This document shows, piece after piece, positions 9,335-31,952 of a stretch of DNA of 38,191 nt; the first letter of the stretch is position 1, and the number at the start of each line of letters is the position of its first letter. The stretch lies in NCBI GenBank assembly GCA_017523285.1, contig JAFWWU010000055.1:1-38191 (forward strand). The letters run 5' to 3'. Made by a program: the position numbers and the translations under genes. This stretch comes from Ruminococcus sp. GTDB taxonomy: Bacteria; Bacillota; Clostridia; Oscillospirales; Ruminococcaceae. A model generated the notes under the pieces. It did no database searches and was not told the origin of the DNA. It worked only from the letters and a program-made list of their open reading frames with translations.

Positions 9335-9369
9335 CGTTATTTTGATTTAGAATGAAAGGGGGAAGAATA

Positions 9370-12300
9370 ATGTTAAACTACACTTCAAAAATTCAGCATT
9401 TTTTAAATTTACATAGAAAGCACACAAAGTATATCGTTGTTCTTCTCCTTTTATCAGCGTTTGTGGCATCGTTCGTGTGTTCAGCTCTTACTGAGCCTGC
9501 GGTTAGTATGACGGATCCGATTCAGATGGGACAGAATGTTACATTACTTGCTGATGGTGATCAGAGCGATGGATTGCCTGTACTTGGCTATCATTATGCT
9601 GATGATAATAGCCAGTTTAAGGATTATATAAAATGGAACGAGAATTGGAAAAGTAATTTACAAATTGAACGTTTGCTAGGTAGTGCACATAATTTTGCTC
9701 TTTTTGGATTTCAAAGTATAACAACTACGAATACACCTTGTGGCGGCAATTTAGCAGCTCCCAAATTAACTTTAGGTGCACCATTTGGACTTGAAAGCAT
9801 TGCACAGGCTGGAGGACAATCTATTACTGTTGCAACAGAATCAGTTGAATTCACCTCATCGTTAACAAGTCGTAATTCAGTGTTGTTATTCCCTGAAAGT
9901 GCAGTTTTTAAAGAAACCACAGAACAGGCTCCGGTTGTAACGGTAAATCCTCTCCCAAGAGTTACTGTAAATGGTACTTTTGTTGAGGGCAATACAACGG
10001 TTTATGCTTATCATGTAACAAATAAGTTTATTAATTTTTCTGAAGAACAAAATAATTTCATAACCTTACAAAATAAGCTTATTGATAATGGTTTAAATTA
10101 TACAATAGAATATTATGGCGATAAAATTACAAGAAACCAAAACAATCAAAATGAAATATCAACTATTAAAATTGATAATGTAGGGCTTAATTACATTAAT
10201 ATTAATTATGATAACCTTCCAACAGGATTTCAGTCTTTAACAGTTGATCTTGCTACTGGTGCAGGTTTGGTTATTAATGTAGACTGTAAAGGAGTTACGA
10301 ATTTAACAACTACATTTCAATTTATTGAAAAGCATAGAGAATTAGGAGAAAATAATACACAATTGGATTATTTGACAGGAACAAATGTAATATGGAATTT
10401 TTATGATTCTACTAAAGGAAATAAACAATTCGAAAATGCTATAACTTTAAAAAATCAGTGTAGTGGTATTATATTGGCTCCATCAGCGAATGTAAACTTA
10501 GGTTCTCAATATGTAGGTGGCGTTATTGTTAATAATATTACAAACTCTGCGACATTTACTAAAGCAATGTTTATGACAACTGTTGAAAGTTTTGAGCAGA
10601 CTTCCATTGCTATAATGGCAAAGAAAAATTGGGCTGATGGAGTTCCTACTACAAACACAACAGTCTATGCAGAACTTTATCGCTCAAAAAATAAAGATTT
10701 GACAATTGATAAGTTAACTGCAGCTGATAAAGTTCCGGATGTCCCTGTACTTGAACTTACAGCTGATAAACATTGGAATGATACATGGTTCAATCTGGAT
10801 CAGAGTTACTATTATTATGTTAAAGAACAGCCTGTAAGTGCAGACGGAAAATATTACAAGGCTGAGTATACTAATAATGGTTGTAATAAGACAGGTACTG
10901 TTGATATTACTAATAGTGTATCGGCTGAAATCGGAGGAGAAAATCAAGAACCTCAGACTATAGATATTACTATTGAAGTTAAATCAAATCCGAATGATTT
11001 GTTTTATAATTCTGAACATCCAGGTAAAAATATTAATTTTTATCGTTCAACATATCCTAATCTGTCTATAGATGATTTGAGTGATTCAGATAAAGTGGAG
11101 CAAATTTTCTCAGATGACGATACTAGCAGGTCTGTCTTTATTACACCAAATTCTGAAAAAACAGAGGAAAATTGGAAATATACTTTTAAGGAGCAGCCAA
11201 TATTTGACGATAACAAAGTTCTATATTATTATATAAAAGAAACCTATTATAATAATGGAACTGCTAGTTATCAAGTATATTATCACAACAATGGAGTTTC
11301 CTTAAGTAATGCTACAATTACTATGTATGCTATTAAGTACATTGACATTACTGTTAAGAAAGAATGGAAAGATAGCAATGGTAATAATTTGAGTGAACTA
11401 CCAAGCTCAATTGAATTTGAAGTGCTTAGATCACGTGAAAATCAGCAGTCAGTTCCTAATGGTGCAGAAGTATTAGGTACATACACTATAAGCTCTAATG
11501 ATAGTTGGAGTAAAACTATTGAGAATCTTCCGATAGCTGATCGAAGTGATAATACATATTATTATTACATCAGAGAAAAGTCGATAAACAGCGGTAATCT
11601 TGATGATTATAATATATCATACAGTGCGGTTGGGTATAATGTTGACGGAGATAATAAAAATGAAAGTGATCAAGTTTACCCGATTTATTGTGATAATAGT
11701 CGTCAATTAGAAGAATACGATGTAACAATTACAAATCAAAAGAAAAAGGCTAATACAATTTCTATAACTGTTCAGAAAAATATGAATGGTAAAACAAGTC
11801 AATTCTGGACAAGTAAGACTTTCAAATTTAAGCTTTTTATGGGTAGGGATACTAATAGTATTAACACTCCTGTTGGCGAGGGCGAGTATGATTTATCTAT
11901 ATCAAACAATTGGCAGTATACTTTTAACGAGCTTGAAAGTGGATATTACTATAGGGTTGAAGAAATAAATACGCCAAGTGGATTCTACCCTGAGTATTCA
12001 AGTGCAATAAACACTAATGGTACATTATATATCAACAACTATCAAAAAACAGTCTCACTCAAAATTCAGAAGCAATGGCAAGGCATTAGTAAAGATCTCA
12101 TGAAACACGTTGTTGTTAATGTATACAGATATAAGGGTGATATCACACAGATTAGCAACCTTTCAATTGAAAATGGTATAGATATTAATTCTTATATTAA
12201 TATGCTTGATGATGCTCCTGTTATTAGTAACGAGGGCAAGACAGTTACTTATTCAAATCTTTCATTTGATGATGCTGCTGATAAGTCACTACATAACTAT

Positions 12301-14907
12301 GAAATCAGAATTGATTTAAGTTCGTATGTTGGCGTTCAACTTAATAGAATAAAAATAGCATTTAGTAGCACACCTAATTTAGAATCGGTTCAACATAATG
12401 ATGGCGGTTGGAGAAGTAATCATACATTATATATAGGTCAAAGTCTTATAAATATAGATTCTGACTTAATCGGAAATTATTGGCAGCGTATTGGTGACAA
12501 TCAAACTTTGATTATATCTTCAATGCAAGATGTAGATTATGAGATTTTATCACTTCAATTAGAATTTAATAGTGCAGTAAGCACAGGTGGCGAAACGACT
12601 ACTACAACTACTACAAAAGTTACAACAACAACTACAACAACAACTACTACAACAACTCAGAGTGGAAATACAAATAATACCGTTGTATTAACAAATCTAG
12701 TATATGATACAAATAAGCAATATTCAAATCATCAATATAATTTTGTTTTTGATTTGTCTCAGTATAAAAACAGAAAAGTATCAAAAATTGAATATAAATT
12801 CAACCAAAATGTTACTTTTACAGCGCGTGATAACAACGAGAATTGTCAATATTTTTTCATCTACGCTTTAAGAAGTCAACTGCCTGGAGATTTTAAAACT
12901 TTGAGAACAGAAACGGATTTTGCTACTAGTAATCATAATATTAGTTATAATTCTTCTAATTATGTTTTAACACTAAATGAAAGCTTTACAGTAGAAGAAA
13001 ACGATTTATTAGTTTTTACAAGTAATTCTGAACCTTATTTTTCAATCCAGCAACTTACAATCACTTTCGCTGATAGTAATCAGATGACATTTCCAACAGG
13101 CACATGGAATGACGCTAAGACAGAGCTTACATTTGATGCAGATATATCATATAACGATAGCAATGGTCAGTATTCAGATGATTATAGCAAATATAATTAT
13201 GTATATAAACTTCCATCAGATGCTTATGGCAAGCAGATAATGAAGGTTGAATATTCTTTTAATTCTGATTTAGGAATAACAAATAATAATAAAGAATATA
13301 GAATTTTTTGCGGTACCTATAATCAAGTTAATAGTACAAATGGAGTTCTTATTAAGATTGTAACTAACAGCAATATTTCTAAAGCAACAGATGGGCTTAC
13401 ATTAAATGGAAATGTGCTCACTTATACTGTATCATCTGATACAGATAATTATGGTGCAAATGGTAACGACCGATTAGGTGCTTTATCATCAAGTGAAGAT
13501 TCATATCTTGTATTTGCAACAAGTGATACGAATAACGCTCCTACATTTCAGATTACTAATCTTAAAATCACTTTTGCTTCTGATGAAGGTAATGATGAAG
13601 AAGAACTTACTGATGTTAATGTGAAAGTTGATATTAAAGATTATATGGAATATGAAATAAACTATTTTCAAACAAAAAAAATATTGAAAGTTGAAGGTTA
13701 TTTCCATAAGAGAGATACATTTAGTGAAGATGATGATAGCTTTAAAAATAAAATTTTTAGAGTAGATGTATCTAAGCCTTGGCTAAATCCAGATTCAAGT
13801 AAAAGCGGATGGAACAATAATGTTTTAACTCAAAATTACGAATCTAGTCAATGCAAAAACATACAACAACTTCAAATTAACTGTCCATCACAATATACCC
13901 AAAATTTAGAAAAAATTATAGTATATTATGAAGATGATTTAGAGTTGACAATTGAAAATAATTTTTATAATTCAAACAATCTCGCCACAGGCTCAGGCAA
14001 TCAAGGCGGCAACACCGAAAAATTAGAATACTCAAAAACAATCAACGTTCTATCAACAAACTTGAATGCTGACGGTAATCTCGATTATAGCAAAAGTCTT
14101 GCATGGCGAATTCCTGACCAGTTCAGAGGTTTTACAGTTAAAGAAATTAAAGCAGAATTTCATAATCGTAATAAACTAACTCGTGAGGGTACAGAATATT
14201 ACAATACAGTATTCAATATGAATATTTACGCAATTAATGATAAGCAGCTTTATGAGAACTGGGATATTGGTGATTATAAAAGTGAATTTGATGATGAAAA
14301 CCATTTGATTTACAAAAGATATTTACCAAAGAATTATAATAATGAAGAAAAGTATAGCTATAGCGAGCTTGATTTCCTGCTTATCTGTACAGCGTACACT
14401 GAAAACCTTAAGCAAATTGTCATTACGTTTGAAGGCGATCACACGATTACATTAATTAATGGCAATGCAGGTACTAATATAGAAGAACCACTTCCATACA
14501 ACCCTTATGACATCACTCTTGTTGAAACAATAACATTAACAGCTGGTAATAATAATTGGGAGCACATTCTCAGTAATCAGCCAATGGTAGCCCCTGACGG
14601 CACACCTTATTATTACGTTATTGAAGAAATAGAAATAGAATATAATGATGGTACTAAACTATCAAGTGCCATTTCTATCAATAACTTATTTGAAGTCGAA
14701 AGCACAGTTCTGAATGCTTTAGACTTAGAAGAAAATCCAGAGAACAACATTCTCACAGTAAAAAACACATTAAAAACAACCAACACAACAATGCCGTCAA
14801 CAGGCGGTATAGGAACTCATCCGTATCGTAATGCGGGAATATTAATGATGATATGTTCAGGAGGAATATATATATCATTAAGAGCATTACGCAAGAAACA
14901 AAATTGA
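9370..14907 (+). CDS. Giant sortase-anchored pilus adhesin with CnaB domains
   Basis: About 1845 aa. The ATG at 9370 follows AAAGGGGGAAG; an in-frame ATG at 9352 would lie upstream of that ribosome site. Residues about 20-42 are a hydrophobic export signal. About 70-405 resembles a choice-of-anchor A/ice-binding-like beta region (FALFGFQ; then GIILAPSANVNLG). CnaB-type domains follow at about 410-530, 531-655, 657-795 and 797-895, each with a V.K.W-type start and a YYYYVKE-type end. A fifth CnaB begins near 896 and resumes near 1714, split by an insert of five related modules with a Thr-rich linker at 1076-1096. The C-terminus has an atypical sortase motif MPSTGG (from about residue 1808), a hydrophobic stretch and a basic tail. 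It is probably the tip adhesin. The coding sequence is much more AT-rich than the GH48 gene. Confidence 0.88.
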   Translation: MLNYTSKIQHFLNLHRKHTKYIVVLLLLSAFVASFVCSALTEPAVSMTDPIQMGQNVTLLADGDQSDGLPVLGYHYADDNSQFKDYIKWNENWKSNLQIERLLGSAHNFALFGFQSITTTNTPCGGNLAAPKLTLGAPFGLESIAQAGGQSITVATESVEFTSSLTSRNSVLLFPESAVFKETTEQAPVVTVNPLPRVTVNGTFVEGNTTVYAYHVTNKFINFSEEQNNFITLQNKLIDNGLNYTIEYYGDKITRNQNNQNEISTIKIDNVGLNYININYDNLPTGFQSLTVDLATGAGLVINVDCKGVTNLTTTFQFIEKHRELGENNTQLDYLTGTNVIWNFYDSTKGNKQFENAITLKNQCSGIILAPSANVNLGSQYVGGVIVNNITNSATFTKAMFMTTVESFEQTSIAIMAKKNWADGVPTTNTTVYAELYRSKNKDLTIDKLTAADKVPDVPVLELTADKHWNDTWFNLDQSYYYYVKEQPVSADGKYYKAEYTNNGCNKTGTVDITNSVSAEIGGENQEPQTIDITIEVKSNPNDLFYNSEHPGKNINFYRSTYPNLSIDDLSDSDKVEQIFSDDDTSRSVFITPNSEKTEENWKYTFKEQPIFDDNKVLYYYIKETYYNNGTASYQVYYHNNGVSLSNATITMYAIKYIDITVKKEWKDSNGNNLSELPSSIEFEVLRSRENQQSVPNGAEVLGTYTISSNDSWSKTIENLPIADRSDNTYYYYIREKSINSGNLDDYNISYSAVGYNVDGDNKNESDQVYPIYCDNSRQLEEYDVTITNQKKKANTISITVQKNMNGKTSQFWTSKTFKFKLFMGRDTNSINTPVGEGEYDLSISNNWQYTFNELESGYYYRVEEINTPSGFYPEYSSAINTNGTLYINNYQKTVSLKIQKQWQGISKDLMKHVVVNVYRYKGDITQISNLSIENGIDINSYINMLDDAPVISNEGKTVTYSNLSFDDAADKSLHNYEIRIDLSSYVGVQLNRIKIAFSSTPNLESVQHNDGGWRSNHTLYIGQSLINIDSDLIGNYWQRIGDNQTLIISSMQDVDYEILSLQLEFNSAVSTGGETTTTTTTKVTTTTTTTTTTTTQSGNTNNTVVLTNLVYDTNKQYSNHQYNFVFDLSQYKNRKVSKIEYKFNQNVTFTARDNNENCQYFFIYALRSQLPGDFKTLRTETDFATSNHNISYNSSNYVLTLNESFTVEENDLLVFTSNSEPYFSIQQLTITFADSNQMTFPTGTWNDAKTELTFDADISYNDSNGQYSDDYSKYNYVYKLPSDAYGKQIMKVEYSFNSDLGITNNNKEYRIFCGTYNQVNSTNGVLIKIVTNSNISKATDGLTLNGNVLTYTVSSDTDNYGANGNDRLGALSSSEDSYLVFATSDTNNAPTFQITNLKITFASDEGNDEEELTDVNVKVDIKDYMEYEINYFQTKKILKVEGYFHKRDTFSEDDDSFKNKIFRVDVSKPWLNPDSSKSGWNNNVLTQNYESSQCKNIQQLQINCPSQYTQNLEKIIVYYEDDLELTIENNFYNSNNLATGSGNQGGNTEKLEYSKTINVLSTNLNADGNLDYSKSLAWRIPDQFRGFTVKEIKAEFHNRNKLTREGTEYYNTVFNMNIYAINDKQLYENWDIGDYKSEFDDENHLIYKRYLPKNYNNEEKYSYSELDFLLICTAYTENLKQIVITFEGDHTITLINGNAGTNIEEPLPYNPYDITLVETITLTAGNNNWEHILSNQPMVAPDGTPYYYVIEEIEIEYNDGTKLSSAISINNLFEVESTVLNALDLEENPENNILTVKNTLKTTNTTMPSTGGIGTHPYRNAGILMMICSGGIYISLRALRKKQN
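12595..12657 (+). repeat. Threonine-codon repeat inside the adhesin gene
   Basis: 21 codons, all threonine except a Lys-Val pair, form a linker between the first and second inserted modules. Slippage-prone low-complexity coding DNA. Confidence 0.85.
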
Positions 14908-21431: not shown

Positions 21432-21460
21432 TTGACATTGATGATTTACAGTGCTAAAAT
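21432..21460 (+). promoter_or_regulatory. Promoter of the T-box/ilvA-leu operon
   Basis: TTGACA (21432-21437), a 17-base spacer and TAAAAT (21455-21460). The predicted start near 21467 places both T-box units in the leader. Confidence 0.85.
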
Positions 21461-21580
21461 ATAGTAAATTGAATATCAATAAAAGCTATGACGAAGAATG
21501 GTCAGGGTTGTATGGCATTTCAGAGAGCCGATGGTTGGTGAAAATCGGTATGCGAGACTTTGTTCTCTCCCTTCCGAGCT

Positions 21581-21821
21581 GGAAGCCCCAAAGGTTCACA
21601 CCCAGTAGGCGTTTCCCGTGTATGCTGCGTAAGTGCATAGAGGTTGATGGACTTCGAAATCAAAGGCGTTGATGAAGACGGAAACTACAACGAACTTCTC
21701 AGAGAGCCGGGGATGGTGTGATCCCGGTAAAGGACTGTAGACTTCCCATCCCTTCTGAGCCGGAAGCCCCAAAGGTTTACACCCAGTAGGCGTTTCCCGT
21801 GTATGCTGCGTTAGTGCATAG
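21581..21821 (+). repeat. 60-nt direct repeat within the T-box leader
   Basis: 21581-21640 and 21762-21821 are identical at all but two positions. They cover the stem II/IIA region (AGTAGGC and the TATGC..GCATA hairpin). The near identity points to a recent duplication or conversion, while the specifier arms between them differ. Confidence 0.92.
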
Positions 21822-21904
21822 AAGTTAATTGACTTCGAAGAGGTGGCGGATGATATATCCGCAATTTGAGTGGTACCGCGAGTGTTGTATATGTTAATTA
21901 CACC

Positions 21905-21946
21905 CGTCTCAAAGCAAGTTTGTAATGCTTTGGGGCGGTTTTTTAT
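21905..21946 (+). terminator. T-box controlled terminator
   Basis: A stem of about 13 bp with some G-U pairs (21905-21917 with 21927-21939) is followed by a run of T. Its left arm would be displaced when the antiterminator forms with uncharged tRNA. Confidence 0.9.
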
Positions 21947-21987: not shown

Positions 21988-23178
21988 ATGTTGTCACTTG
22001 ATAAGGTCTTTAATGCACAGACTGTACTTAAAAAAATTATTCGTGAAACTAATGTGGTAAGAGCGTATGGAATTGCTCCGAACTGTGAGCTGTTTCTTAA
22101 ACCTGAGAATTTACAGATAACAGGCTCATTCAAGGTAAGAGGCTCGGCTTATAAAATTGCTATGCTTTCCGAAGAAGAAAAACAGAAAGGTGTAATTGCT
22201 TGTTCGGCTGGTAATCATGCACAGGGTGTTGCACTTGCCGCAACAAAAAACGGAATAAAATCATTGATATGCCTGCCTGATACAGCTCCGATTTCTAAAG
22301 TTGAAGCAACAAAGGGCTTTGGCGCAGAGGTTTGTCTGGTTGAGGGCTGTTATGACGACGCATATCAGAAAGCTTTAGAGCTTAAAGAAAAAGAGGGATA
22401 TACCTTTGTTCATCCTTTTGATGATGAAAATGTCATAGCAGGTCAGGGGACTATTGCACTTGAAGTTCTGACAGAGCTTGATGATATCGATGCTATTGTT
22501 GTGCCTGTCGGCGGCGGCGGACTTATTTCTGGAATTGCATATACCGCTAAGAAGATAAGACCTTCCGTAAAGGTTTACGGAGTTCAGGTTACAGGTGCGC
22601 CAAGTATGTATAATTCCTTGAAAAACGGAAAAATTAAATCGTTAAAATCAGTTTCTACAATTGCTGATGGTATTGCGGTTAAAAAGCCCGGAGATAATAC
22701 ATACGAGTATGTAAAAAAATATGTCGATGAAATCGCTCTTGTCAGCGATGATGAGGTTTCAAGTGCAATTCTTGCACTTATGGAAAAGCAGAAAATGATA
22801 GCTGAGGGTGCAGGTGCTGCAGCTGTTGCGGCGGTAATGTTCAATAAATTTGATTTCAATGGTAAACGTGTAGTAGCAATAGTATCAGGCGGCAACATTG
22901 ATGTCACAAGTCTTTCGCGAGTTATTGACAGAGGTCTTAGAAATTCGGGACGTTCTTCAAGTCTGCTGATTGAACTTATAGATAAACCGGGACAGCTTAA
23001 AAATATATCCCGTATTATTGCAGACTGTGGTGGAAATGTTACGGGAGTTCACTACGAGAAGGGCAATACCGAAAGCGTTAACGGATGTTTTCTTCGTATT
23101 GATATGGAAACAAGAGATTATGAACACGTTAACCTTATTACGCAGTCGCTTCGTAATGAGGGATTTAAAATAGTATAG
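21988..23178 (+). CDS. ilvA: Threonine ammonia-lyase (biosynthetic threonine dehydratase)
   Basis: 396 aa, ATG 21988 after GAAAGGCGG; the frame is open further upstream but that part overlaps the terminator. A PLP enzyme of fold type II: Lys49 in TGSFKVRGS is the Schiff-base lysine, SAGNHAQGVA and VGGGGLISG bind substrate and the PLP phosphate. A C-terminal ACT domain (about 325-396, from LLIELIDKPGQLKNISRII) suggests allosteric control. It converts threonine to 2-oxobutanoate, the committed step to isoleucine. First gene of the operon behind the T-box; only 12 bases to ridA. Confidence 0.95.
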   Translation: MLSLDKVFNAQTVLKKIIRETNVVRAYGIAPNCELFLKPENLQITGSFKVRGSAYKIAMLSEEEKQKGVIACSAGNHAQGVALAATKNGIKSLICLPDTAPISKVEATKGFGAEVCLVEGCYDDAYQKALELKEKEGYTFVHPFDDENVIAGQGTIALEVLTELDDIDAIVVPVGGGGLISGIAYTAKKIRPSVKVYGVQVTGAPSMYNSLKNGKIKSLKSVSTIADGIAVKKPGDNTYEYVKKYVDEIALVSDDEVSSAILALMEKQKMIAEGAGAAAVAAVMFNKFDFNGKRVVAIVSGGNIDVTSLSRVIDRGLRNSGRSSSLLIELIDKPGQLKNISRIIADCGGNVTGVHYEKGNTESVNGCFLRIDMETRDYEHVNLITQSLRNEGFKIV

Positions 23179-23190
23179 AGGAGAATAATT

Positions 23191-23568
23191 ATGAGCAATA
23201 AAATTCAGACAAACAATGCCCCTGCGGCAATCGGACCTTATTCACAGGCAATAGTTACAGGAAATCTTATTTTTACATCGGGACAAATTCCGCTTAACCC
23301 TGAAACAGGACTTATTGAGGGAGATAATATCACCGAACAGACTCATCGTGTATGTAAAAACCTTGAAGCTGTGCTTGCTGCCGCAGGAAGTTCATTGAAA
23401 AATGCGGTTAAAACAGTATGCTTTTTGAAGAATATGGAGGATTTTGCAGCATTTAACGAGGTGTATGCAGAGTATTTCACTGAAAAGCCTGCACGCTCCT
23501 GTGTGGCTGTAAAGATGCTTCCGAAGGATGCTCTTGTTGAGGTTGAAGTGATAGCGGAAAAGGAGTAA
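23191..23568 (+). CDS. ridA: RidA family enamine/imine deaminase
   Basis: A 125-aa YjgF/YER057c/UK114 protein: opens with IQTNNAPAAIGPYSQAIV, has FTSGQIPLNPETG and ends with the ARSCVAV..LPKDALVEVE signature, whose arginine binds substrate. RidA hydrolyses reactive 2-aminoacrylate/aminocrotonate released by threonine dehydratase, so its place directly behind ilvA makes biochemical sense. AGGAG precedes the start. Confidence 0.96.
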   Translation: MSNKIQTNNAPAAIGPYSQAIVTGNLIFTSGQIPLNPETGLIEGDNITEQTHRVCKNLEAVLAAAGSSLKNAVKTVCFLKNMEDFAAFNEVYAEYFTEKPARSCVAVKMLPKDALVEVEVIAEKE

Positions 23569-23572
23569 ATAT

Positions 23573-25243
23573 ATGATGGATTCAACTAAATATCGTGTCG
23601 GGTATTATCCCGTAGATGAGAAATATACTCATTGGGTTAAGAATGAATATATAAAAAAGCCGCCCGTATGGTGTAGCGTTGATATGCGTGACGGAAATCA
23701 GAGCCTTGTAATTCCGATGAGTCTTGAAGAAAAGCTTGAATACTATAAGGTTCTTCTTGAAGTAGGCTTCAAGGAGATTGAAGTTGGATTTCCTGCCGCA
23801 AGTGAAACAGAATATGAATTTCTGCGTACACTTATAGATAAAAATATGATACCTGATGATGTTACAGTTCAGGTTCTTACACAATGCCGTGAACATATTA
23901 TCCGAAAGACTTTTGAAGCCTGTAAGGGTGCGCCGAGTGCGATTATTCATTTTTATAATTCCGTAAGCGTTGCACAGCGTGAACAGGTATTCGGCAAATC
24001 AAAGGAAGAAATAAAACAGATTGCGATTGACGGAGCAAGACTTGTAAAAAAGCTTGCGAAGGAGTATGAAGGGAATTTCCGTTTTGAATATTCTCCCGAA
24101 TCCTTTACAGGAACAGAGCCTGAATATGCACTTGAAGTGTGCAATGCTGTACTTGATGTGCTTGAGCCTGATGAAAACAATAATGTTATTATAAATCTTC
24201 CTGTAACTGTTGAAATGAGCCTGCCGCACATATACGCTTCACAGGTTGCATATATGAGTGAAAATCTTAAATATCGTGAGTTTGTAACACTTTCGCTTCA
24301 TCCTCACAACGACAGAGGCACAGGTGTTGCAGATGCTGAGCTTGCACTTCTAGCAGGCGCAGACCGTGTGGAAGGAACATTGTTCGGAAACGGCGAAAGA
24401 ACAGGCAATGTTGATATAATTACACTTGCTATGAATATGTATTCTCACGGAGTTGACCCGAAGCTTAATCTTTCTGATATGAATTATCTTGTTGAAAAAT
24501 ATGAAAACTGTACCCGTATGCGTGTTCACGACAGAGCACCTTATGCAGGCTCACTTGTATTTGCCGCATTTTCGGGAAGTCATCAGGATGCTATCGCAAA
24601 GGGTATGAAATACAGACAGACAAACGAGCTTCATGAATGGACTGTTCCGTATATTCCGATTGACCCTGCCGATATAGGCAGAACTTATGATGCAGATGTA
24701 ATCAGAGTAAATTCTCAGTCAGGAAAAGGTGGTATTGGTTATCTGCTTGAACAGACATTCGGATATAATTTGCCTAAGAAAATGCGTGAGCATTTCAGCT
24801 ATCTCTGCAAGGATATTTCAGACAGAGAGCATAAAGAACTCAAGCCTGATGAAATGCTTGAAATATTCAAGGAGAATTATCTTAATATTCAGGGAGATAT
24901 AAAGGTTACGGAATTTGACTTTATCCGTGACCATGGCGCAGTAAAAATCAATATTACCTTTATGCAGAACGGAGTTGAAACAAAGCTTGAAGCTGATGGC
25001 AATGGTTCTCTTAATGCTGTAAGCAATGCTCTTAAAGCATATACGGGCAAGGAATATGTATTGCAGATATTTACTCAGCACAGTATGCAGGGTAAAGGCT
25101 CACAGAGTATAGCGGCTTCATATATCGGAATTGAAAACGAAAACGGCGAAATGTTCTGGGGAGCAGGTACTGATACCGACGTTATCAAAGCAAGTACAAA
25201 CGCACTTCTGAGTGCTTTCAGTAATATGACAAAGGGAGGCTGA
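23573..25243 (+). CDS. leuA: 2-isopropylmalate synthase, long form
   Basis: A 556-aa enzyme with an HMGL-type TIM barrel (about residues 25-320): [12 protein letters not shown] carries the metal-binding aspartate, [12 protein letters not shown] the metal histidines, and [12 protein letters not shown] is diagnostic of LeuA. The C-terminal third (about 400-556) contains the regulatory/dimer domain for leucine feedback. Length and N-terminus fit the long LeuA type. It condenses 2-oxoisovalerate and acetyl-CoA, the first leucine-specific step. The start follows AAAGGAG embedded at the end of ridA. Confidence 0.94.
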
Positions 25244-25247
25244 TTAT

Positions 25248-26507
25248 ATGGGAATGACTATGACGCAGAAAATTCTTGCCGCTCATGCAGGGCTTGAAAG
25301 CGTAACTGCAGGACAGCTTATAAACGCAAAGCTTGATATTGTTCTTGGCAACGATATCACTACCCCTGTTGCTGTAAATGAATTCAAAAAGGCAGGATTT
25401 GACAAGGTTTTTGATAAAGACAGAATAGCAATTGTGCTTGACCATTTTGTGCCTAACAAGGATATAAAAGCGGCTGAACAGAGTAAAACCTGTCGTAATT
25501 TCTCATGTGAGCATTGCATAAGTCATTTTTATGATGTGGGCAAAATGGGCATAGAGCATGCACTTCTCCCTGAACAAGGCATTGTGACAGCAGGTGACTG
25601 TATTATCGGTGCTGACAGTCATACCTGTACTTATGGAGCAGTAGGAGCTTTCTCGACAGGAGTAGGCTCTACCGATATGGCAGCAGGTATGGCAACAGGT
25701 ATGGCTTGGTTTAAAGTGCCGTCAGCAATAAAATTCAATCTTATCGGAAAGCTTCCCGATAATTGCAGCGGAAAAGACGTAATTCTTACAATAATCGGCA
25801 TGATAGGTGTTGACGGTGCTTTATATAAAAGTATGGAGTTTATTGGCGAGGGTGTGCGTAATCTTTCAATGGATGACCGTCTTTGTATCTGTAACATGGC
25901 AATAGAGGCTGGTGCAAAAAATGGCATTTTCCCTGTTGATGAGGTTACAATGGAATATTTAAGCGGCAGAAGTGAAAGAAATCCGATAGTATACGAGGCA
26001 GATGCAGACGCTGAATACGAAAAAGTAATTGATATTGACCTGAGCGCAGTTGTTCCTGTTGTAGCTTGTCCGCATCTTCCCGAAAATACACGTCCTGCAA
26101 GTGAGCTTCACGATATAGTTATAGATCAGGTTGTAATCGGTTCATGTACAAACGGCAGACTTGAAGACATGGAAGCGGCTTATAAAATTCTCAATGGCAA
26201 GAAGATAGCTGACGGAGTCCGTTGTATAATTATTCCGGGAACAATGCAGATTCTTCGTGAGTGCGTTCAGCGTGGCTGGTATACTGCATTTATTGACGCA
26301 GGAGCTGTTGTATCAACTCCTACATGCGGTCCGTGTCTTGGAGGATATATGGGCATACTTGCCGCAGGTGAACGCTGTATTGCAACGACAAACCGTAATT
26401 TTGTCGGACGTATGGGGCACGTTGAAAGTGAGGTTTATCTTGCTTCTCCGCATACAGCCGCCGCAAGTGCTTTAACAGGCTATATCACCGAATACAAGGA
26501 GGATTAA
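25248..26507 (+). CDS. leuC: 3-isopropylmalate dehydratase large subunit
   Basis: A 419-aa aconitase-family subunit of the shorter, separate LeuC type. The 4Fe-4S ligands are Cys300 (GSCTNG) and Cys360 and Cys363 (CGPCLGG); [15 protein letters not shown] and [10 protein letters not shown] line the active site. It pairs with LeuD to isomerise 2- to 3-isopropylmalate. Members of this subfamily can also act on homologous substrates, but the leuA and leuB neighbours settle the role. AAAGGGAGG precedes the ATG. Confidence 0.95.
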
Positions 26508-26510
26508 ACG

Positions 26511-27008
26511 ATGAATACACAAGGTAAGGTTTTTAAATATCCCGATAATGTCGATACCGATGTAATTATTCCTGCACGTTATCTTAATACTCCTGACGCA
26601 AACGAGCTTGCTCTGCACTGTATGGAGGATATAGACAAAGATTTTGTGAAGAAAGTCAGCAAGGGCGATATAATGGTAGCAGGCTGGAATTTCGGCTGTG
26701 GCTCTTCAAGAGAGCATGCTCCGCTTGTAATAAAAACATGTGGTACGGGTTGTGTTATTGCGAAAAGCTTTGCGAGAATTTTTTATCGTAACGCAATAAA
26801 TATCGGACTTCCTATTCTTGAATGTGAAGAGGCGGCAGAGGAAATAAATGCAGATGATGAAGTAAGTGTTAATTTTGATACAGGTGTTATTACTGATATT
26901 ACAACAGGAAAAAGCTATAAGGCACAGCCTTTTCCACCGTTTATTCAGAATATCATTAAAAGCGGCGGACTTCTTAATTCATTGAAAGAGGGTATGAGCA
27001 ATGATTAA
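26511..27008 (+). CDS. leuD: 3-isopropylmalate dehydratase small subunit
   Basis: 165 aa, the swivel domain of the aconitase fold: [14 protein letters not shown] at the start and the substrate-binding [12 protein letters not shown] loop at about residues 64-75. Forms the heterodimer with LeuC. It starts 3 bases after leuC, with AAGGAGG overlapping the leuC end, and overlaps leuB by 8 bases. Confidence 0.96.
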
Positions 27009-28062
27009 GAATATAGCAGTTATCCGTGGTGACGGAATCGGTCCTGAAATTACAGCGCAGGCAATCAGAGTTCTTGACAGAATTGCGGAGCTTTATGGAC
27101 ATACATTCAATTATACTGAAGTCGATATGGGTGGATGTGCCATTGATAAATATGGCGATCCGCTTCCTGAATCCGAGCTTGAAAAATGTCTTGCATCTGA
27201 TAGTGTACTTCTCGGAGCAGTAGGAGGCGAAAAGTGGAATAATGTTGAAGGAGATAAACGTCCTGAAAAAGGACTTTTAAGACTTCGTGCAGGAATGGGA
27301 GTTTATTCCAATAATCGTCCTGCAAAAATCTGGAAACAGCTTTCAGAGGCATCGCCTCTGAAAAAAGAAATAGTAGACAAAGGCATTGATTTTATTATCG
27401 TAAGAGAGCTTATCGGCGGAATATATTTCGGCGAGCATAAAACAGAGGGCAATACGGCAATTGATGTACTCAGATACAGCGAAGCGGAAATCGAGAGAAT
27501 TGGCAGAATAGGCTTTGAAACTGCAAGAAAACGCAATAAAAAGCTCTGTTCCGTAGAAAAGAGCAATGTTCTTGATTCAAGTCGTTTATGGAAAAAGGTT
27601 ATGCATCGTTTGGCAGAGGAATATTCTGATGTCGAGCTTTCGGATATGCTTGTTGATAACTGTGCTATGCAGATTGTAAAAAATCCTTCACAGTTTGATG
27701 TTATTGTTACTGAAAATATGTTCGGAGATATACTTTCAGACGAGGCTTCAATGATAACAGGCTCAATAGGAATGATTCCGTCATCAAGTCTTGGAGCGAC
27801 TGACTGTGGACTTTATGAGCCTATTCACGGCTCTGCTCCCGATATTGCAGGAAAGGATATTGCAAATCCTGTCGGAACTATTCTTTCAGCGGCAATGATG
27901 CTTCGTTTCAGCTTCAATATGCCAAAGGAGGCTGATGCGATTGAAGCGGCAGTTTCTGCTTATCTTGATGCAGGCTACCGAACTGCTGATATTATGAGCG
28001 AGGGAATGACACAAATAGGCTGCAGACAATGCGGCGATATTATTGTTTCCTGTTTGAAATAA
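27001..28062 (+). CDS. leuB: 3-isopropylmalate dehydrogenase
   Basis: A 353-aa NAD-dependent beta-decarboxylating dehydrogenase: [10 protein letters not shown] near the N-terminus, [18 protein letters not shown] with the substrate arginines, [16 protein letters not shown] with the metal aspartates, and [19 protein letters not shown] in the nucleotide site. Oxidises 3-isopropylmalate to the leucine 2-oxo acid precursor. Last gene of the operon, translationally coupled to leuD. The BCAA genes ilvBN, ilvC, ilvD and ilvE are not in this window. Confidence 0.96.
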
Positions 28063-29423: not shown

Positions 29424-31952
29424 ATGAAGCAATATACAATAATTGGTATGAGCTGTGCTGCCTGCACCGCAAGGATTGAAAAAGCGGTATCAGGTGTAAA
29501 AGGTGTAATTTCCTGTTCAGTCAGTCTGCTGACTCATTCAATGGGCGTTGAAGGCTCTGCCGATACTAATGAGATAATAGCGGCGATTCGCAACGCAGGA
29601 TATGACGCAATACCAAAAAATGAAAACGCAGAACAGCCAGCAAGTTTATCTGAGGATGATGAAATCTTGAAAGACAGAGAAACTCCTGTCCTGAAAAAAC
29701 GACTGATTGCTTCTATCGGATTTTTAATTGTGCTTATGTATATTTCTATGGGGCATACGATGTTTGGATGGCCTATGCCGTCCTTTTTTGAAAACAATCA
29801 TACGGCAATAGGAATTTTACAGCTGTTATTAACGGTTACAGTTATGATAATCAATCAGAAATTCTTTATAAGCGGATTTAAGAGTCTGTTGCATCGTTCT
29901 CCGAATATGGATACCTTAGTGGCATTAGGCTCTATGACTGCTTTCGGGTACAGCACATTCGCTCTGTTTGCAATGACTGATGCTCAGATAAAAGGAAATA
30001 CTTCTGCTGTAATGTCATATATGCATGATTTATATTTTGAATCTGCTGCAATGATTCTTGCATTGATAACTCTTGGAAAAATGCTGGAGGCACGTTCAAA
30101 AGGCAAAACAACAGACGCTCCGAAAAGTCTTATGAAGCTTTCTCCAAAGACTGCTGTTATCTGCCGTAATGGAACTGAAATAACAGTACCGATTGAAGAG
30201 GTAGCAATGGGAGATGTCTTTTTAGTTCGTCCTGGTGAGAATGTTCCTGTTGACGGAATTGTTATAGACGGAGAAAGTGCGGTAGATGAATCCACCCTTA
30301 CAGGCGAGAGTATACCCGTCGATAAAACAGCAGGAAATACAGTTTCCGCAGGAACGCTGAATCAATCAGGATTTTTACGCTGTGAAGCAACAAGAGTGGG
30401 CAAAGATACTACCCTATCCCAAATCATTCAGATGGTAAGTGACGCTGCTGCGACAAAAGCACCTATTACAAAGATTGCAGATAAAGTATCAGGGATATTT
30501 GTACCTGCAGTTATTACTATTGCTCTTATAACTATCGCAATATGGCTTATTCTCGGTCAATCGGTGGGGTTTGCTCTGACGCGGGGCATATCTGTGTTGG
30601 TAATAAGCTGTCCTTGTGCACTTGGACTTGCTACGCCTGTTGCTATTATGGTAGGTAATGGAATGGGGGCGAGAAATGGCATCCTCTTTAAGACTGCCGT
30701 ATCTTTAGAAACAACAGGAAAAGCACAGATTGTTGTATTCGATAAAACAGGAACGATTACACAGGGCGAACCGACGGTTACAGATATAATCCCATTAAAT
30801 AATATGAGCGAAGAGGAACTTTTGTTTACTGCTTATTCGCTTGAAAAGAAAAGCGAACATCCGCTGGCAAGGGCGATTAATCAGAAAGCGGAGCAAGAAG
30901 GATTAAAAGCCTGCGACGTTAAGCAATTCAAGGCTCTTGCAGGAAACGGACTTTCTGCCACACTTGATGATGATGTTCTTCTTGGTGGAAATTACAGATT
31001 TATCAGTGAGCAAATTACAGTTACAGATGAAATAAAAATCATATCCGAACAGCTTTCAGAGGAAGGCAAAACGCCGTTGTTTTTTGCACTTGGCGGAAAA
31101 CTTTGCGGAATTATTGCCGTTGCGGATACTATCAAAGAAGATAGTCCGAGAGCAATAGAGAAAATGAAAAACATGGGAATTCATGTGGTAATGCTGACAG
31201 GGGATAACGAGCGCACAGCTAAAGTTATCGGAGCAAATGCAGGTGTTGATGAAGTAATAGCAGGTGTATTGCCTGACGGAAAAGAAAAAGTAATCCGAAA
31301 ACTGCAGGAAAAAGGAACTGTAATTATGGTCGGTGATGGCGTCAACGATGCTCCTGCCCTTACAAGTGCGGATATTGGTATTGCTATCGGTGCAGGTGCA
31401 GATGTTGCAATTGATGCGGCAGATGTTGTGCTGATGAAAAGCCGTTTATCTGATGTTCCGGCTGCCATTCGTCTGAGTCGTGCAACGCTGAAAAACATTT
31501 ACGAAAATCTGTTTTGGGCGTTTATATATAACATTATCGGAATTCCATTGGCAGCAGGTGTATTTATCAGCATACTCGGCTGGCAGCTCAATCCTATGTT
31601 TGGCGCTGCGGCAATGAGCTTATCAAGCTTCTGCGTAGTTACTAATGCGCTGCGATTAAACCTCTTTAATATGTATGATTCAAAGCGTGATTACAAAATC
31701 AAAAACAAATTTAAAATAAAAATTGAAAAGGAGAATAAACCTATGGAAAAAACATTAAAAATTGAAGGAATGATGTGCGGACATTGTGAGATGCACGTCA
31801 AGAAAGCACTTGAGGCACTTGAAGGTGTAAAATCAGCAGAGCCAGATCATAAAACAGGAACTGCTGTTATAATAATGGAAAAAGAAATCTCCGATGATGT
31901 CTTAAAACAGATTATTTCGGAAGAAGGATATCAGGTAACTGATATTTTATAA
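29424..31952 (+). CDS. copA: Copper-exporting P1B-type ATPase fused to a CopZ-like domain
   Basis: 842 aa. N-terminal HMA domain with MSCAAC (Cys11, Cys14); membrane helices; actuator motif TGES (293-296); membrane copper site CPC (Cys396, Cys398); phosphorylation motif DKTGT (Asp440); SEHPLA in the nucleotide domain; GDGVNDAP in the P-domain. After the last helix and a basic linker (KNKFKIKIEKENK) a second HMA domain begins at Met774 with MMCGHC (Cys785, Cys788). That order is unusual, as metal-binding domains of CopA are normally N-terminal. Exports Cu(I) at ATP cost. The start ATG is about 17 bases after AGGGAG, which is long. Part of the csoR operon. Confidence 0.95.
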   Translation: MKQYTIIGMSCAACTARIEKAVSGVKGVISCSVSLLTHSMGVEGSADTNEIIAAIRNAGYDAIPKNENAEQPASLSEDDEILKDRETPVLKKRLIASIGFLIVLMYISMGHTMFGWPMPSFFENNHTAIGILQLLLTVTVMIINQKFFISGFKSLLHRSPNMDTLVALGSMTAFGYSTFALFAMTDAQIKGNTSAVMSYMHDLYFESAAMILALITLGKMLEARSKGKTTDAPKSLMKLSPKTAVICRNGTEITVPIEEVAMGDVFLVRPGENVPVDGIVIDGESAVDESTLTGESIPVDKTAGNTVSAGTLNQSGFLRCEATRVGKDTTLSQIIQMVSDAAATKAPITKIADKVSGIFVPAVITIALITIAIWLILGQSVGFALTRGISVLVISCPCALGLATPVAIMVGNGMGARNGILFKTAVSLETTGKAQIVVFDKTGTITQGEPTVTDIIPLNNMSEEELLFTAYSLEKKSEHPLARAINQKAEQEGLKACDVKQFKALAGNGLSATLDDDVLLGGNYRFISEQITVTDEIKIISEQLSEEGKTPLFFALGGKLCGIIAVADTIKEDSPRAIEKMKNMGIHVVMLTGDNERTAKVIGANAGVDEVIAGVLPDGKEKVIRKLQEKGTVIMVGDGVNDAPALTSADIGIAIGAGADVAIDAADVVLMKSRLSDVPAAIRLSRATLKNIYENLFWAFIYNIIGIPLAAGVFISILGWQLNPMFGAAAMSLSSFCVVTNALRLNLFNMYDSKRDYKIKNKFKIKIEKENKPMEKTLKIEGMMCGHCEMHVKKALEALEGVKSAEPDHKTGTAVIIMEKEISDDVLKQIISEEGYQVTDIL
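31743..31952 (+). CDS. copZ: CopZ-like copper chaperone, internal in-frame start within copA
   Basis: ATG 31743 lies in frame with copA, 9 bases after AAAAGGAG (31726-31733), a ribosome site as good as any in the window. Initiation here would give a free 69-aa HMA protein with MMCGHC, the size and fold of CopZ. So this stretch may be made both as the CopA C-terminus and as a soluble chaperone. The sequence does not show whether fusion, internal initiation or both occur in vivo. Confidence 0.6.
   Translation: MEKTLKIEGMMCGHCEMHVKKALEALEGVKSAEPDHKTGTAVIIMEKEISDDVLKQIISEEGYQVTDIL

Follow-up and report, generated by a model that had tools for sequence, protein, structure and literature searches.

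A T-box leader with leucine and isoleucine decoding units in series and a single expression platform in Clostridia

Introduction

Can one T-box decision module serve two specifiers for different amino acids? This question is raised by the leader upstream of ilvA in the stretch of DNA analysed here (38,191 nucleotides from a gut bacterium, hereafter the window). The leader shares with the transcriptional T-box of RF00230 a stem I with its specifier, a stem II, a stem III, a T-box core and mutually exclusive antiterminator and terminator structures, but it differs in placing two units for different amino acids before one platform and in scoring below the gathering score of the family. We found that related bacteria keep the same codon pair, which suggests that one RNA may sense a shortage of either amino acid.

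Results

Anatomy of the leader

Positions 21481-21944 form a transcriptional T-box leader. It contains two serial decoding units together with a single stem III, antiterminator and terminator. Unit 1 spans 21481-21655 and unit 2 spans 21662-21836, while the decision elements are located only 3′ of unit 2. A promoter-like site, which is a strong match, precedes both units. The features of the leader and its operon are as follows.

21432-21460, plus strand: promoter-like site TTGACA-17-TAAAAT, with 11/12 consensus bases, the best among 3 sites (mean of 1.3 in shuffles)
21481-21583, plus strand: stem I of unit 1, Leu type, with the bulge motif CAGAGA and distal loop GGTTGGTGAAA (RF00230 match; 88.8 bits with model R1; covariation in relatives)
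21567-21569, plus strand: specifier 1, CTC (Leu), by the six-base rule described below; CTC or GTC in 39/39 double leaders
21581-21655, plus strand: stem II of unit 1, stem IIA/B-like element and extra hairpin (21640-21655) (RF00230 alignment; consensus fold)
21662-21764, plus strand: stem I of unit 2, Ile type, with a shorter distal loop, GGATGGTGTGATCC (RF00230 match; consensus fold; 98.1 bits with model R1)
21748-21750, plus strand: specifier 2, ATC (Ile), by the six-base rule; ATC in 39/39 double leaders
21762-21836, plus strand: stem II of unit 2, stem IIA/B-like element and extra hairpin (21821-21836) (RF00230 alignment; consensus fold)
21845-21862, plus strand: stem III (GGCGGA...TCCGC), a single copy, after unit 2 only (RF00230 alignment; consensus fold)
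21865-21913, plus strand: antiterminator with the sole T-box bulge, TGGTACC (21871-21877) (RF00230 alignment; sequence read directly)
21868-21880, plus strand: T-box core GAGTGGTACCGCG, a single copy (sequence read directly)
21903-21944, plus strand: intrinsic terminator with a T run at 21939-21944 (consensus fold columns 511-545)
21988-23178, plus strand: ilvA, threonine ammonia-lyase (TIGR01127, above cut-off)
23191-23568, plus strand: ridA, Rid family hydrolase (TIGR00004)
23573-25243, plus strand: leuA, 2-isopropylmalate synthase (NF002991)
25248-26507, plus strand: leuC (TIGR02083)
26511-27008, plus strand: leuD (TIGR02084)
27001-28062, plus strand: leuB (TIGR00169)

The T-box core lies inside an antiterminator that excludes the terminator, since the hexamer CTCAAA (21908-21913) is common to both structures. 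RF00230 matched unit 2 at 21660-21914 (76.1 bits, E = 1.2e-16), with the T-box core inside the match, and unit 1 at 21479-21647 (53.8 bits, E = 6.7e-11), where the match is essentially stem I and stem II. These matches and direct reading of the sequence bear out the initial annotation, which had described two stem I/stem II units sharing one T-box core and one terminator. The ilvA and leuACDB genes that it placed behind the leader were likewise recovered by the NCBIfam-type matches listed above, in the order ilvA-ridA-leuA-leuC-leuD-leuB. In the RF00230 search that it had proposed, the two units were matched in series, but the codon columns, read by eye, were one base off and both scores fell below the gathering score of 93. 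A default Rfam scan of the window was empty for this last reason. The two-unit pattern occurred once in the window and in 0/100 shuffles, and a chance origin was rejected.

A cryptic antiterminator or terminator in unit 1 had been named as an observation that would count against this anatomy. We sought one and did not find it. No T-box core lies between the units in the window or in any of 35 relatives found by the pattern, and the longest T run between the units was 2-6 bases at 37 loci. A terminator scan of the window also gave none between the units, which is weak evidence because the scan missed the real terminator too, the loop of which is longer than it permits. A T-box core or terminator belonging to unit 1 was rejected on the absence of cores, the short T runs and, within its loop-length limit, the terminator scan. 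A T-box match at base 316 of L131 sits inside stem II and is not a core.

Register of the specifiers

The RF00230 alignment is loose at the specifier, and its codon columns, read by eye, are one base off (UCU and CAU). We therefore took the register from leaders of the host genome, in which the codon is followed by six bases and then by GAGY at the foot of stem I. This rule was correct in 5/5 aminoacyl-tRNA synthetase leaders of the same genome that have GAGY, giving GTA for valS, AAC for asnS, ACC for thrS, GCT for alaS and TTC for pheS. It yielded no usable candidate codon in L005 and L008, and it reads TAC in L001, which is not one of these five. In the window it assigns CTC to unit 1 and ATC to unit 2, and single leaders in the host genus have CTC or ATC at the same place. 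The specifiers assigned by the initial annotation, CTC at 21567-21569 and ATC at 21748-21750, thus agree with the register from the five synthetase leaders, and these stem I loop codons match the pathway of the ilvA-leu operon. The contrary outcome, the same amino acid in both units, was looked for with the calibrated register and in the codons of 39 double leaders; it was not found and was rejected. We consider the anatomy and the two specifiers, taken together, to be highly probable.

Conservation in Clostridia

We searched genome contigs with the two-unit pattern and obtained 53 stretches, of which we kept the 35 with CTC or GTC as the first specifier and ATC as the second. The other 18 departed from these codons in one unit or the other and were dropped; 17 are non-Clostridia by title, the other is L068, and no T-box leader was recognised in these 18. 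We attribute the GGTACC-like matches of L074 and L076 to chance. The T-box core follows unit 2 by 111-125 bases in 34/35 kept stretches, the remaining one being too short. The pattern-found leaders number 36 when the window is included and a duplicate is removed (L078, which repeats the leader L014); 31 stand before ilvA and 2 before leuA (L050 and L088), with 3 stretches too short. Three more (G229, G376 and G415) were added from an ilvA survey or a covariance model, both independent of the pattern, for a total of 39 distinct double leaders, all but that of the window in other Clostridia genomes. The codon pair is CTC/ATC in 36/39 and GTC/ATC (Val/Ile) in 3/39, from Candidatus Fournierella.

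The pattern is found in only 2/125 genomes of the host genus. In a sample of the family, this ilvA is present in 72/157 genomes; besides that of the host there are 71 ilvA upstream regions, 25 with a T-box motif and 5 double. For 19 of the ilvA leaders with a T-box motif, which are more distant, inspection covered the 230 bases upstream of the motif, and not all of these are taken to be single. A survey of 297 family genomes with the covariance model gave at least 12, host included, with a same-strand pair of units. Gemmiger sp. An87 and An194, whose records have no MAG label, carry the double leader; we take both to be cultured isolates. The same layout, which the initial annotation had suggested seeking in related Ruminococcus, is present in other Clostridia, and judged by these comparisons the double-unit layout is conserved and not a local accident.

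The codons were counted over the 36 pattern-found leaders, with only the third codon base fixed by the pattern itself. The first two bases are A (36) and T (36) in unit 2, and C (33) or G (3) and T (36) in unit 1. The six bases upstream of the codon are conserved in 14-34 of 36 leaders in unit 1 and in 17-36 of 36 in unit 2, so that codon conservation is conspicuous in unit 1 but less marked in unit 2.

For alignment A1 we omitted L090, which ends after unit 2, and for the fold and covariation sets we omitted L088 and L093, which are near-copies of L050 and L073. Stem I of unit 1 (33 sequences, 32 distinct) pairs in 97.1% of cells, and pairing drops to 25-40% in slid controls. Two-sided changes were observed in 25 cells, compared to 5.4 in shuffles, and in 5 pairs compared to 3.0, in a shuffle test that can be inflated by the relatedness of the sequences; further standard pair types went in the opposite direction (7 compared to 9.0). 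Overall, covariation in these sequences supports stem I of unit 1. In RNAalifold structures fitted to the same sequences, 704/758 stem I cells pair in unit 1 and 926/951 in unit 2. When the whole leader was folded by RNAalifold, the 3′ arm of unit 1 paired with its counterpart, the 5′ arm, in unit 2 in place of closure of each stem I; such pairing would allow the units to communicate. Folded as single sequences, the two stem I pieces did not take the textbook shape.

Relationship of the two units

In a tree of 98 stem I sequences, which has few columns and rough support, 34/34 unit 1 rows group with 11 single-Leu leaders and 33/34 unit 2 rows group with 19 single-Ile leaders. These separate clades indicate that the double leader combines a Leu-type with an Ile-type unit, rather than arising from recent duplication inside each genome. 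The exception is G229, in which unit 2 has a Leu-type stem I yet reads ATC. Unit 2 of L050, where the operon begins with leuA, groups with the single-Ile leaders. An assembly artefact or recent copy was rejected, given the 39 distinct leaders and the two stem I types in separate clades.

Units and operon content

Across the sequences compared, unit content tends to follow operon content. Operons with leu genes behind such leaders have a Leu unit in 22/22 cases, whereas unit 1 is present in 9/13 operons that lack leu genes; the other 4 have single-Ile leaders, before ilvA alone (G219), ilvA-ilvBNC at a contig end (G328) and ilvA-ridA-ilvBN (G379 and G323). Fisher's test of the Leu unit against leu genes gives p = 0.014, a value that ignores kinship and comes from loci mostly chosen for being double. 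In G243, ridA-leuACDB stands behind a single Leu unit. The contrary case is G320, where ilvA-ridA-leuACDB-ilvBNC has one Leu unit only, and the Ile unit is therefore not always retained with ilvA.

G287 has an intact double leader before ilvA-ridA-ilvBNC-ilvD and a second such leader before leuA (L230, G287:C85). In this second leader unit 1 is intact, while unit 2 has lost the distal part of stem I, folds as a closed hairpin and reads ATT by the six-base rule. It is the best hint that an upstream unit 1 can work by itself, and a natural test case for action at a distance. A second leuA in the same genome (L226/L227, G287:C12:94672-96329) occupies two frames, matching query 1-404 in one and 398-553 in the other, and looks broken or mis-assembled.

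The three GTC species have leuA elsewhere, under a separate T-box whose codon, read by eye with the six-base rule, is CTG. One of their double leaders (L087) stands before ilvA-ilvB-ilvN-ilvC-ilvD, where a valine signal makes sense; only ilvA-ilvB and ilvA are visible in the respective stretches of the other two (L065 and L075). Operon content does not fix the choice between Leu and Val, since CTC leaders also stand before ilvA-ilvB operons.

Possible mechanisms

Two genes for tRNA-Leu(GAG), each ending in ACCA, were identified in the host draft. We did not find tRNA-Ile(GAT) in the host draft, which may lack that region; the tRNA-Ile(GAT) of Gemmiger sp. An194 ends in ACCA. The TGGT bulge is complementary to the ACCA of tRNA-Leu(GAG) in the host and of tRNA-Ile(GAT) in Gemmiger sp. 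An194 only, and to that extent the match with discriminator A anticipated for both tRNAs holds. Among the part of the tRNA hits that were typed in L075, a GTC species, there was no tRNA-Val(GAC).

We propose, with a probability of roughly 0.6, that the leader is a dual-input T-box riboswitch in which either uncharged tRNA stabilises the shared antiterminator, giving OR logic. Uncharged tRNA-Leu(GAG) would bind unit 1, or uncharged tRNA-Ile(GAU) unit 2, and the free ACCA end of either would pair with the sole TGGT bulge and stabilise the antiterminator, allowing RNA polymerase to read through into ilvA-ridA-leuACDB. During action of unit 1, unit 2 would loop out or be bypassed, and a lack of either amino acid would switch the operon on. 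The anatomy, the two specifiers, the single platform, the conservation and the match of units to genes are supported by the sequence comparisons. Beyond these, we infer binding of both tRNAs, contact of unit 1 with a bulge ~300 bases 3′ of its codon, and the OR logic itself: one bulge can hold one tRNA end and, if both units keep their tRNA contacts, either uncharged tRNA should suffice. Such logic suits an operon serving two end products. Weighing against the proposal are G320 with its lone Leu unit, the two RF00230 scores below the gathering score, the cross-unit pairing given by RNAalifold, the atypical single-sequence folds of stem I and the failure to find tRNA-Ile(GAT) in the host draft. 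We lean slightly towards the broader view of a natural single-RNA OR gate with exchangeable modules (Leu or Val, plus Ile) and a shared antiterminator, in which the first module would act across a folded module of ~180 bases, and gain, loss or re-coding of modules would keep step with changes in the gene content of the operon.

Cooperation between the units is unlikely but would have a physical link in the possible pairing of their arms in the RNAalifold structure, and glycine and similar adjacent-aptamer riboswitches are described as cooperative in the accessible portions of PMC9481103 and PMC12452182. Here tRNA-Leu on unit 1 would be needed by, or would help, tRNA-Ile on unit 2, and the leader would open fully only with both uncharged. 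However, the antiterminator bulge accepts one tRNA end, and the same platform is kept in Ile-only leaders and in the G287 leader with its one working-looking and distant Leu unit. An operon for two end products would also miss a shortage of one under this AND-type logic.

The retained Leu codon (Val in three species) and the apparent dependence of G287, G243 and G320 on a Leu unit make it improbable that unit 2 decides and unit 1 only modulates folding, pausing or the threshold for tRNA-Ile, its own tRNA signal never reaching the bulge. This arrangement would fit the usual bulge spacing of unit 2 and the existence of single-Ile leaders that presumably work. Unit 1 might also be silent, left over from a full tandem T-box whose first terminator has been lost, as full tandem T-boxes are common on branched-chain operons in Bacillota according to the part of PMC12452182 available to us. 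A relic is very improbable when the specifier, motifs and pairing of unit 1 are retained across double leaders and no T-box core separates the units in any of the 35 pattern-found leaders. Of the options that the initial annotation left open (either-or, additive or one unit silent), the comparative data favour the either-or reading, in which each unit can signal to the shared antiterminator, and weigh against a silent unit 1.

Comparison with known RNA architectures

Work by Vitreschak from 2008 reportedly describes a doubled terminator-antiterminator in partially tandem T-boxes, which would be the reverse of the doubled decoding units in the window. The accessible text of PMC7583486 states that partially tandem T-boxes exist with an unknown mode of action and leaves the doubled part unstated. 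In full tandem T-boxes, such as those upstream of trp, thrS and ilv/leu genes, serial units also stand before amino-acid genes, but each unit has its own expression platform and both are expected to need uncharged tRNA (PMC12452182, in part), whereas the window leader has a single platform. One T-box of Clostridium acetobutylicum senses tRNA-Asn and tRNA-Glu, as PMC4052509 describes for the work of Saad from 2013; it uses two overlapping codons in one specifier loop, in contrast to the two stem I units with one codon each in the window. The window leader does agree with the definition of an adjacent-aptamer riboswitch in the accessible part of PMC12452182, namely two or more aptamers before one expression platform. 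In the glycine riboswitch the ligand is the same for both aptamers and binding is described as cooperative, whereas two different tRNAs are expected here.

A 2022 review lists OR among the two-input riboswitch logic functions unobserved in nature, in the portion available (PMC9481103). The literature searched, which covered few subscription papers, showed us no account of a T-box platform shared by two decoding units that read different tRNAs. If our proposal is correct, the T-box antiterminator is not tied to the adjoining stem I, and a far-upstream tRNA reaches past another folded module, which would revise the picture of T-box geometry and co-transcriptional timing. The leader would then be a natural OR gate, with regulatory modules that track operon content. 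The single-Ile, single-Leu, collapsed-Ile and Val relatives provide a ready test series. Default Rfam scans can miss such leaders, because both units of the window score under the cut-off.

Other leaders and neighbouring genes

Single T-boxes of the Leu and Ile types (L003/L006, L015-L042 and L249-L257) stand before long fusion-like proteins, which by eye have a sugar-isomerase-like or XRE/cupin-like start, followed in part by an AMP-binding-like region. The L003/L006 leaders are divergent neighbours in the host (contig C143, 7444-8081). One of these fusion-like proteins gave no match to NCBIfam; as a guess, they may serve to produce Leu and Ile, with branched-chain acids as the starting material. 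L016 and L023 (minus strand) have a leader that reads CTC by the six-base rule before a gene that is DAHP-synthase-like by eye, and their specificity is doubtful because the stretch TACTTCTCC holds Tyr and Phe codons too. A single CTC leader in L260 (G295:C75) precedes a protein that resembles, by eye, an ABC transporter substrate-binding lipoprotein. Elsewhere in the window, an open reading frame of 1851 aa occupies 9352-14907, and a copper-type P-type ATPase whose two ends both carry CopZ-like metal-binding stretches lies behind the leu operon (29424-31952).
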